NCBI GenBank assembly: GCA_905478225.1
Contig: CAJQHR010000006.1
Coordinates: forward strand, 62,001 to 126,000
Source: an uncultured Crocinitomix sp.
Lineage (GTDB): Bacteria > Bacteroidota > Bacteroidia > Flavobacteriales_D > Crocinitomicaceae
Reading direction: 5' to 3'
Length of the DNA: 64,000 nt
Shown: piece by piece, positions 19,397 to 21,310 of the stretch
Numbering within the stretch: position 1 is the stretch's first letter
How the letters are laid out: each line of letters starts with the position of its first letter
The notes under the pieces: generated by a model
Told to the model about the DNA's origin: nothing
Database searches by the model: none
What the model saw: only the letters and a program-made list of their open reading frames with translations
Position numbers and translations under genes: made by a program

Positions 19397-20293
19397 ATGT
19401 TAAGTATCGATCCTAAAGAACTACCAATTCCTCAACTGCACGGCTATTTGCTGGGAGCTGTTGGGCCACGTCCTATTGCTTTTGCAAGTACGATTGATGC
19501 GGATGGAAATGCAAACCTAGCTCCATTTAGTTTCTTTAATGTGTTTAGCGCAAACCCTCCAATTATGGTTTTTTCTCCTGCAAGATCGGGAAGAACAAAT
19601 ACTACAAAAGACACCTATAACAATGTAAAAAACATTGCAGAGGTGGTAATAAATGTAGTCAGTCATGAAATGGTGCATCAAATGTCATTGGCCAGTTCGC
19701 CTTTTGCAGCTGAAGTAGATGAATTTGCTAAAGCCGGGTTCACTAAAATTGCCTCTGATACGATTAAACCTTTTCGGGTAGCAGAATCCCCTGTTCAATT
19801 TGAATGTGTGGTGAATGAAGTGGTTGAATTAGGACAAAACGGCGGTGCAGGAAACTTGGTGATTTGTGAGGTGAAAAAAATTCACATCAACGAAGCCGTG
19901 CTAAACGAAGATGGCAAAATCGATCAACATAAAATTGACTTGGTTTCAAGAATGGGCGGTAATTGGTATTGCCGTGCAGATGAGCACTCCATGTTTGAAA
20001 TTAAAAAACCTATAACAACCGTTGGAATTGGGTTTGATGCTATACCTGAAGACATAAGAAACAGTTCACTTTTAACGAATAACGATTTTGGGCAACTGGG
20101 CGGAATTGAAGAATTACCAAATGAAACTGATGTAAATGAATATAAATTACTTGAATTAAGCGATTTATTTGTTTCTTTGGAAGACGAACAAGCAAAATTG
20201 GAATTAGAACTCCATAAAAGAGCAAAGGAATTATTAACTGAAAATAAATTGGATGAAGCTTGGATGACGCTTCTATCCTTCAACAACAACTAA
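19397..20293 (+). CDS. Flavin reductase family protein (FMN-binding)
   Basis: 298 residues. The N-terminal two thirds match the DIM6/NTAB flavin reductase-like fold: VGPRPIAFASTIDADGNANLAPFSFFNVFSA-type start, PPIMVFSPARSG, then KNIAEVVINVV and a substrate-side region. It would use NAD(P)H to reduce FMN or act as a flavin-dependent oxidoreductase; the substrate is unknown. The C-terminal 80 residues (about 215-298) are an extra helical tail. It is followed after 13 bp by the DUF3127 gene. Confidence 0.88.
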   Translation: MLSIDPKELPIPQLHGYLLGAVGPRPIAFASTIDADGNANLAPFSFFNVFSANPPIMVFSPARSGRTNTTKDTYNNVKNIAEVVINVVSHEMVHQMSLASSPFAAEVDEFAKAGFTKIASDTIKPFRVAESPVQFECVVNEVVELGQNGGAGNLVICEVKKIHINEAVLNEDGKIDQHKIDLVSRMGGNWYCRADEHSMFEIKKPITTVGIGFDAIPEDIRNSSLLTNNDFGQLGGIEELPNETDVNEYKLLELSDLFVSLEDEQAKLELELHKRAKELLTENKLDEAWMTLLSFNNN

Positions 20294-20306: not shown

Positions 20307-20660
20307 ATGTACACATTAAAAGGAGAGCTAAAAGTGATCGGAGATGTTCAACAAATTTCTGACTCTTTTAAGAAGAGAGAATTTGTGGTAGTGGACGCTT
20401 CCGGACAATACGCGCAAACAATTATGTTTCAAGCCGTGCAAGACAGAACGGATCTTTTGAACAATTTTAAATTAGGTGACAATGTAGAAGTAACGTTCTT
20501 TTTGAGAGGGCGTGAGTGGACAAACCCGAAAGATGGTGCTGTGCGTTACTTTAACTCGTTAGATTGCTGGAAAATCGAACCAATTGGTGGTGGATCTGCA
20601 GCAACTGCTGACAACGCTGAGACTTTCGTCGCTGAAGGAGATGATGACTTACCATTCTAA
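20307..20660 (+). CDS. DUF3127 protein with an SSB-like C-terminal tip
   Basis: 117 residues. The first 90 form a compact beta-rich domain (MYTLKGELKVIGD, QQISDSFKKREFVV, NVEVTFFLRGREW, YFNSLDCWKIE) typical of the OB-fold-like DUF3127 family. A flexible acidic tail ends GDDDLPF, almost the same as the DDDIPF tip that single-stranded DNA-binding protein uses to recruit repair and replication partners. A DNA or SSB-network role is inference. It appears co-transcribed with the flavin reductase. A partial copy of its 3' end lies just downstream. Confidence 0.85.
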   Translation: MYTLKGELKVIGDVQQISDSFKKREFVVVDASGQYAQTIMFQAVQDRTDLLNNFKLGDNVEVTFFLRGREWTNPKDGAVRYFNSLDCWKIEPIGGGSAATADNAETFVAEGDDDLPF

Positions 20661-20710
20661 TTAAAACAGATAATTAACTAGGCTGATAAATCAAACGATA
20701 GAAGTTTATG

Positions 20711-20725
20711 CTGAGCCTGTCGAAG
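20711..20725. repeat. Dispersed CTTCGACAGGCTCAG-type repeat
   Basis: CTGAGCCTGTCGAAG is the reverse complement of CTTCGACAGGCTCAG, a short element seen scattered between genes in many bacterial genomes (general knowledge). It is the only copy I see in this window and sits between the gene end and its partial duplicate. Confidence 0.6.
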
Positions 20726-20729
20726 TATA

Positions 20730-20770
20730 GCTGAAGGAAAGGATGACCTTCCAGTCTAGTTAAAAAAACA
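20730..20770 (+). repeat. Partial duplicate of the DUF3127 gene 3' end
   Basis: gctgaaggaaaggatgacct and the bases up to ...ttaaaaaaaca resemble 20631-20668 (gctgaaggagatgatgactt ...), including the last codons (AEG-DDLP) and the stop region, with several substitutions. The unit was copied once and has diverged. Confidence 0.7.
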
Positions 20771-20781
20771 CATTAAACTTA

Positions 20782-20814
20782 AAAGGTGTTTGTCAGCGAC
20801 AAATGCCTTTTTTT
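20782..20814 (+). terminator. Terminator of the flavin reductase-DUF3127 operon
   Basis: AAGGTGTTTGTC and GACAAATGCCTT pair around AGC with two mismatches, followed by ttttttt. Confidence 0.75.
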
Positions 20815-20818
20815 GCAT

Positions 20819-21310
20819 ATGAAAAAAATCTATTTGATAGGGTTGCTTTTATGCTCACGTCCTAATTACGCCCAAATTTCAGAAAAATGAGAAGGAAATT
20901 ATGCAGGTGATTTAGTAATTAATTCCAAAAGCAACACGAGCTATTATCATATGGAAATCAACTTTATGCAGCTTAATGATTCTACCTATAACTGGACAAT
21001 TATTTATGGAGAGGATAGTTTAAGACAGGAGCGCAAGTGCCTCTTTCGACAAGCGAAAGAGAATGAATTTGTCATTGATGAAAAAAACGGGATTGTCTTA
21101 TCCACCAATCTTATTGGAGCAACTTTTTTTAGTGTTTTTGAAGTCCAAAGCAATCTGATTCAAGCCACCTACACGTTTAAGAAAAATAAAATTTACTTTG
21201 AATTAACTTCTTCGTCAACTAAATCTGAAACAGGTAATGTCAAGCCTTTGGCAGCTGATGAAGAAACAATTCCGCGGGTTTATTCATACGAAACCACAAC
21301 GGAACAATAG
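20819..21310 (+). pseudogene. Small secreted protein gene interrupted by one TGA
   Basis: An ATG at 20819 opens a Sec signal (MKKIYLIGLLLCSRPNYAQ) and after ISEK meets TGA at 20888-20890. The same frame then stays open for 140 codons (EGNYAGDLVINSKSN ... SYETTTEQ). A TGG-to-TGA change would explain it (SEKWEGNY is a natural reading). The body is a beta-rich small protein of unknown function. An internal ATG at 20951 would give 119 residues without signal and is unlikely to be the real start. Confidence 0.8.

Follow-up and report, generated by a model that had tools for sequence, protein, structure and literature searches.

Two features of one small gene raise the question addressed here: why its product ends like the partner-binding tip of a single-stranded DNA-binding protein (SSB), and why the last codons of the gene occur a second time just behind it, next to a hairpin repeat. 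The gene belongs to the DUF3127 family and lies in the window, the whole stretch of 64,000 nucleotides that was analysed (Table 1). The best joint explanation is probably that the gene encodes a second SSB-like protein and that its end bears the footprint of a tiny insert. The duplication looked minor but is the more interesting half of the finding.

Table 1. Features of the DUF3127 locus, in window coordinates
Feature	Position	Strand	Basis or remark
Flavin reductase-like gene (PF01613)	19397..20293	+	Pfam; 13 bp upstream of the DUF3127 gene, conserved neighbour
DUF3127 (PF11325) SSB-like gene	20307..20660	+	ORF, 117 aa; Pfam and PHROG profiles, predicted model
D1, intact gene end	20631..20666	+	Last 27 coding bp, stop, 6 bp
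Codons of the GDDDLPF tip	20637..20657	+	Translation; family conservation
Insert spacer	20667..20700	+	No other own-genome match better than E 0.5
Tag GAAGTTTAYN	20701..20710	+	5' side of hairpin
Hairpin core CTGAGCCTGTCGAAG	20711..20725	+	Family form: 4-bp stem (two outer pairs covary), 11-nt loop
D2, displaced decayed second gene end	20730..20765	+	30/36 identical to D1
Terminator-like hairpin with T run, after D2	20781..20814	+	Folding; missed by simple terminator scan

The DUF3127 protein and its predicted fold

The DUF3127 profile PF11325 matches the product with 86.6 bits against a curated cut-off of 27 and is the only Pfam profile to do so at E ≤ 0.001. The SSB profile PF00436 does not match the protein, and a scan of the window's own genome with this profile found four other places, the window protein not among them. 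A PDB sequence search with the protein gave nothing significant (best E 0.27, an SSB). Since PF00436 is silent and the PDB search is not significant, the protein is termed SSB-like and kept out of PF00436. Among phage families, PHROG 4932, "single strand DNA binding protein", aligns with residues 2–117 over profile positions 1–117, tail included, at E 4e-32, and a second SSB PHROG matches weakly.

An AlphaFold model (pLDDT 82.8), for which the window protein was aligned to 26 viral relatives, has the order b1-b2-b3-a-b4-b5. It predicts an OB-fold over residues ~1–95, followed by a linker (96–110) and the tip; the linker has very low model confidence and is probably disordered. The 50 Foldseek matches listed for the model are all SSBs (best E 3e-6), and VIA gives a Z of about 12, tied among mitochondrial Rim1, PriB and bacterial SSB. 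The predicted model and the fold searches agree on an SSB-type OB fold, to which PriB is an equally good fit.

The initial annotation had suggested that the tip mimics SSB or competes for its partners. The SSB-type tip is there, but a mimic is not the simplest reading because the whole protein is predicted to form an SSB/PriB-type OB barrel and matches a phage SSB family over its full length. The product looks like an SSB-like protein itself. The gene would then supply a second SSB-like protein whose OB domain is expected to bind single-stranded DNA, while its flexible linker and SSB-type tip would recruit SSB partners.

The acidic C-terminal tip

The product ends in ...VAEGDDDLPF, an acidic tip of the (I/L/V)PF kind behind a flexible linker. 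Its likeness to the partner-binding tip of SSB, noted at the outset, is borne out within the same genome, where the housekeeping SSB ends in NKEPEDDLPF. By reading, the housekeeping ssb gene adjoins a mutY-like gene. The genome has three more PF00436 places besides it (L002–L005 on contigs C20, C37 and C63), two of which adjoin on C37, one with an in-frame TAA.

A variable C-terminus in the family would have spoken against the proposed SSB-like role of the tip, and none was found. All 98 distinct DUF3127 proteins from genome contigs end in PF, 94 of them in (L/I/V/M)PF and 54 in DDDLPF. This is an uneven sample of 102 open frames, drawn mostly from the window's own taxonomic family and the best 30 places of a phylum search, with some genomes in twice and prophage copies possibly included. 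The 56 distinct viral relatives comprise 39 that end in PF, 12 with a DLPWD-type tail and five with neither; the DLPWD-type tails replace LPF in a viral group with loci such as L362, L363 and L364. Over 154 sequences, P116 is invariant where present and F117, L115 and D114 are kept in 92%, 88% and 85%, whereas at linker positions 95–111 the commonest residue reaches only 15–39%. The GDDDLPF tip is ordinary for the DUF3127 family.

OB topology, flexible linker and acidic LPF tip are common to the window protein and bacterial SSBs such as E. coli SSB, B. subtilis SsbA and Flavobacterium psychrophilum SSB. FpsSSB of F. psychrophilum and PtoSSB of P. torquis are given as ending in DLPF (PMC3991886). 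Unlike PF00436 SSBs, the window protein has no match to that profile, and its gene lies apart from the housekeeping ssb and is paired with a flavin reductase gene.

Distribution and neighbours of DUF3127

When 100 genomes were sampled within the window's taxonomic family, 94 had PF11325, including all 82 of high quality; it is also present in 143/247 genomes of a phylum sample and in 112 phage records. In one genome (G058), contig C21 carries four DUF3127 matches, including two that fall in 207-aa open frames near each other. At 70 of 79 DUF3127 loci the next gene upstream, in the same orientation, is the flavin reductase-like one; both these 79 loci and the 80 used below for gene ends count some genomes twice and possibly include prophage copies.

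In Nonlabens phage P12024L, gp21 is a DUF3127 protein annotated as SSB, encoded next after the genes for an Erf annealing protein and a YqaJ exonuclease. For Pantoea phage AAS23, gp25 is described as an SSB that contains a DUF3127 domain (PMC8004638). Phage annotation thus already implies an SSB-like nature of DUF3127, which that source states for one phage protein. The window protein has the family and the SSB annotation in common with the phage SSBs of PHROG 4932 and differs in being encoded in a bacterial genome.

This context bears on an unlikely reading of the gene, in which the product is a PriB-like partner or an RNA-binding OB protein with an SSB tip and does not bind single-stranded DNA. 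Although PriB chains match the model as well as SSB does in VIA (Z 12.3 vs. 12.2) and the conserved flavin reductase pairing has no obvious link to DNA, the full-length PHROG match, the uniform Foldseek result and the recombination-gene context of phage DUF3127 genes all point away from it, as does the tip. PriB is not known to have an SSB-type tip. With its family-typical tip, the DUF3127 protein is a good candidate for a second SSB.

A second gene end behind a tagged hairpin

The initial annotation described a 40-bp partial copy of the gene end, reaching to 20770. The copy is present, but it is nearer 36 bp long and ends slightly earlier. It starts 4 bp past the repeat, reads AEGKDDLPV, with the tip lost, and has no start codon; D2 is probably a scar without coding function. 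When the gene end was scored against the DNA downstream of it, 6 of 80 DUF3127 loci reached a score of at least 13, the window scoring 18, and shuffled controls had a maximum of 11 over the 80 loci.

The second copy stands behind a 69-bp insert, which ends in the tagged hairpin AGTTTAYN-CTGAGC..GTCGAAG. The minus strand carries an exact CTTCGACAGGCTCAG repeat at 20711–20725, the sole match in the window with up to 2 mismatches (0.06 expected). DNA folding of 20680–20760 is no more stable than shuffles (z -0.26), and in Rfam nothing reaches the gathering score, two matches with E 0.35 and 0.64 staying far below it. Behind D2, 20778–20818 folds at -14.8 kcal/mol (z -4.35). The close relative G047 has a terminator-like hairpin much like this one ~25 bp past the stop; by reading, the window has the insert first.

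Comparison across genomes bears out the hairpin as a genuine structure. In 117 distinct copies of one core form, pairing is kept at stem position 1 in 112 and at position 2 in 110, with 48% and 75% expected, and both positions covary. The 3' bases opposite the tag (positions 3–5) are mixed, and the tag looks unpaired, in a sample that was mostly gathered by tag and leaves little room for covariation there.

With a short stem, a conserved 11-nt loop and what looks like a tag at one end, the hairpin follows the layout given for tagged repetitive extragenic palindromes (REPs), which lie mostly downstream of coding regions (PMC3733652). The window hairpin thus appears to resemble the GTAG/CGTC REPs of Di Nocera 2013 (PMC3733652) as a short palindrome tagged at one end. 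It seems to be set apart by its tag, AGTTTAYN in place of GTAG or CGTC; in addition, a gene-end copy may abut the hairpin, and the word "duplication" is absent from the main text of that paper.

A RAYT (Y1 transposase), which in the GTAG class of REPs is flanked by its repeat, was rejected as the mover. Y1_Tnp has no match in the window's own genome, and among 11 Y1_Tnp loci in five relatives none is flanked by the hairpin on both sides and two have one nearby (L268, and L266 with another core). Carriage by phages or plasmids was likewise set aside: two viral contigs have the exact tagged hairpin, and window positions 20600–20830 have no match in the plasmid collection. Searches of open-access literature found no description of the insert or of the repeat letters.

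The insert at DUF3127 in relatives

Comparison of the locus among relatives found the insert at DUF3127 in six genomes and its absence in eight (G047, G011, G071, G089, G042, G004, G008, G020). A downstream gene-end copy accompanies the hairpin in the window, G031, G060, G097 and G026; G055 is a sixth hairpin case, with the core variant CTGAGCGAAGTCGAAG. The sixth locus with a gene-end copy, in G081 (L043), has a DUF3127 gene-end duplication without the hairpin. The six inserts are 69–73 bp long with a D1–D2 spacing of 99–103 bp, and at every one of them a spacer, which differs between loci, separates the intact gene end from the hairpin. An exact pattern search of 240 family genomes recovered four of the six insert loci; the decayed window copy and the G055 core variant fall outside the pattern.

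D2 is nearest to its own D1 in G031 (0/30 mismatches), G055 (1) and G026 (2), tied with D1 of other genomes in G060 (3) and in the window genome, G000 (6), and nearer to D1 of other genomes in G097 (2 mismatches vs. 3 to its own). Because this closeness differs among the six genomes, recent or converted copies and older copies both seem to be present at DUF3127.

The same anatomy at tRNA and SpoIIE genes

Hairpins came from two sources, at least 118 stretches of GTDB contigs and a set of 345 class-level genomes with matches in 19; for the class-level genomes the matches listed are the first places per genome (in G672, 11 of 32). Among the matches listed, a copy of upstream DNA begins no more than 4 nt away from 20 of 170 usable AGTTTA-type hairpins, and mispaired controls show this in 2 of 5,058; copies starting farther away number 3/170 among the matches listed vs. 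10/5,058 mispaired. Without L448, which was chosen with its copy known, the count among the matches listed is 19/169. Set B held both L448 and the window itself (L408); among the matches listed it gives 11/48 without L448 and 10/47 without the window too, four of these being tandem units of L406. A mirror control, with the copy abutting the 5' side, gave 9/162 vs. 19/162 on the 3' side and is not independent, since, by our reading, two copies with a short insert between them score on either side. The far-downstream control at a score of at least 24 gave 4/116 vs. 12/116 observed, and the first anchored test 7/104 vs. 1/104.

The 19 hairpins lie in 14 loci, 11 of which are gene ends among the matches listed: tRNA or tRNA-like genes (L187, L234, L257, L402, L406, L416, L426), SpoIIE genes (L153, which is one place with L419, L401 and L409) and the window. 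The remaining three are a composite Chryseobacterium repeat (L186, L206) and a hairpin tandem (L216). The tRNA and SpoIIE-phosphatase genes, all in Bacteroidota, share the order of intact gene end, spacer, hairpin, 0–4 nt and second gene-end copy.

At tRNA genes the boundary is fixed. Among the matches listed, 9 of 183 tagged hairpins lie at most 200 bp downstream of the 3' end of a same-strand tRNA, and a tRNA-end copy lies behind the hairpin in eight of the nine, at seven of eight tRNA genes; at the ninth (L437, tRNA-Asn) a decayed copy seems recognisable by eye. The eight genes are those for Arg, Leu, His, Gly, Trp (two loci, one with two hairpins), Lys and Asn. The copy starts in the T-loop, at nt 56–58 (66 in tRNA-Leu), 17–19 nt before the 3' end. 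From D1 start to D2 start, the clear tRNA cases measure 56 (L187) to 194 bp (L414). Further T-loop copies were found by reading at L234, L416, L242 and L124, the last with a variant-tag hairpin. L187 and L242 come from the named strains Marixanthomonas spongiae and Aequorivita lipolytica, so the pattern is not confined to metagenome bins.

Six SpoIIE genes show the anatomy, including L300, L308 and L235 (apparently all in G026), and all six match PF07228; by reading, their boundaries differ by about 9 bp between loci.

Adjacent copies also go with one form of the tag. Dividing the hairpins by the two bases before AGTTTA, a class drawn up after the data were seen, gives an adjacent copy in 18 of 28 GAAGTTTAYN hairpins and 8 of 151 others among the matches listed, with a score limit of 27 that admits L235 (score 27). 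The 18 include the hairpin tandem L216, and four of the ten apparent negatives (L242, L303, L414, L437) carry a tRNA-end copy, partly by eye. The corrected count among the matches listed is 21/28, or 15/22 without the six DUF3127 loci, which had been chosen for that gene; tandem units (L234, L406) are counted singly. The eight copy-bearing hairpins outside the class are six SpoIIE ends and two of the composite repeat. Altogether, 153 of 179 tagged hairpins among the matches listed have no adjacent copy. Untagged family hairpins have one in 5 of 45 cases, made up of one tRNA-Leu place counted twice, two tandem repeats and L116. At L116/L305 (G060), a hairpin lacking the AGTTTA tag sits between the two copies of a 24-bp perfect direct repeat, and no gene end was identified.

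How the insert may arise

A split, restored and displaced gene end is common to DUF3127, tRNA and SpoIIE loci. Simple local tandem duplication was rejected, because the hairpin insert recurs at the same site in other genomes and at unrelated genes. The gene end does occur twice, as first described, but this seems to be the result of an insertion, which would have displaced the gene end and restored it. The proposal that the repeat took part in the duplication gains support beyond the window from the hairpin inserts in other genomes and at unrelated genes.

In the mechanism considered here, a tiny insert would enter the gene roughly 17–30 bp before its 3' end and bring or generate a fresh gene end (D1), so that the gene stays intact, while the original gene end (D2) would be left displaced directly behind the tagged hairpin. 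The reaction may be performed in trans by a site-specific recombinase that recognises the tagged hairpin as its terminal site. Both this and the choice of the original copy are inferred chiefly from the T-loop boundary being fixed at tRNA genes; the fixed inner and variable outer boundary found here are what an integrase-like insertion with the recombinase in trans predicts.

When an integrase island enters a tRNA gene, the gene is split and then rebuilt from the element, with a displaced fragment left over; the T-loop is among the known crossover subsites (PMC4383910). By analogy, the insert resembles such a split and restored integrase target with almost no cargo. It shares with the tyrosine-integrase islands described for Islander (PMC4383910) the split target, the restoration from the element, the displaced fragment at the far end and the T-loop subsite, a likeness of anatomy only. 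Unlike them, it measures tens of bp and contains no integrase, and one hairpin serves different tRNAs and two protein-gene families. No integrase would fit inside the 69–73 bp at DUF3127, and no recombinase was tied to the unit.

Two other origins were weighed. Template switching during replication, where the polymerase leaves the gene end, copies a hairpin stretch, folds back and resumes 17–30 bp upstream to give a templated insert between direct repeats, is doubtful. It would account for the differing spacers and for the stretch left of the tag, which is often complementary to the D2 start (score of at least 16 in 32/176 among the matches listed vs. 5.8% mispaired), most clearly at the tRNA-Gly locus L402, where acceptor- and T-stem complements lie side by side. 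However, the window copy shows no inverted arm (score 8), and template switching predicts neither the fixed T-loop boundary at several different tRNAs nor the same target in six genomes with near-constant spacing. We tentatively place the recombinase route ahead of polymerase switching.

It is less probable still that the inserts are remnants of larger islands targeted to tRNA genes or gene ends, with the cargo deleted and the hairpin a chance survivor. The split-and-restored anatomy is that of integrase islands (PMC4383910), and in G031 a tRNA-His gene is followed by the hairpin, D2 and an ISL3 transposase fragment (PF01610) at the contig end (L302, 425–1015; chosen for a tag and hairpin resembling the window's). 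Another contig (L303, 1–420) starts with DNA without Pfam match and continues with a second tagged hairpin and D3. Yet unrelated loci keep tag and hairpin against D2, where independent deletions would hardly all have stopped, and the several tandem 72-bp hairpin units behind tRNA-Trp in G151 (L406, 1221–1508) look like repeated small insertions or amplification of a unit. The G031 tRNA-His place may itself be a unit with cargo, L302 and L303 being contigs that are not joined.

Returning to site-specific insertion, we tentatively suggest that Bacteroidota harbour unnamed minute mobile elements for which the GAAGTTTAYN-CTGAGC..GTCGAAG hairpin would be the terminal recognition site. Units of ~56–194 bp would enter the tRNA T-loop and the 3' ends of DUF3127 and SpoIIE genes, the tag at SpoIIE being slightly different. 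Each unit would restore the gene it enters by means of an end copy of its own; units could stack in tandem and might sometimes carry cargo such as an insertion sequence. At DUF3127 the target would be the SSB-tip codons.

Implications

For the protein, a family without assigned function that is near-universal in the window's relatives gains a testable role as a second SSB-like protein, a candidate that forms a conserved pair with a flavin reductase and belongs to a family common to phages. For the gene end, the proposed insertion would, if true, represent a minimal site-specific element with integrase-like target anatomy and almost no cargo. If confirmed, the insert could account in part for a hairpin repeat that occurs in many phyla.
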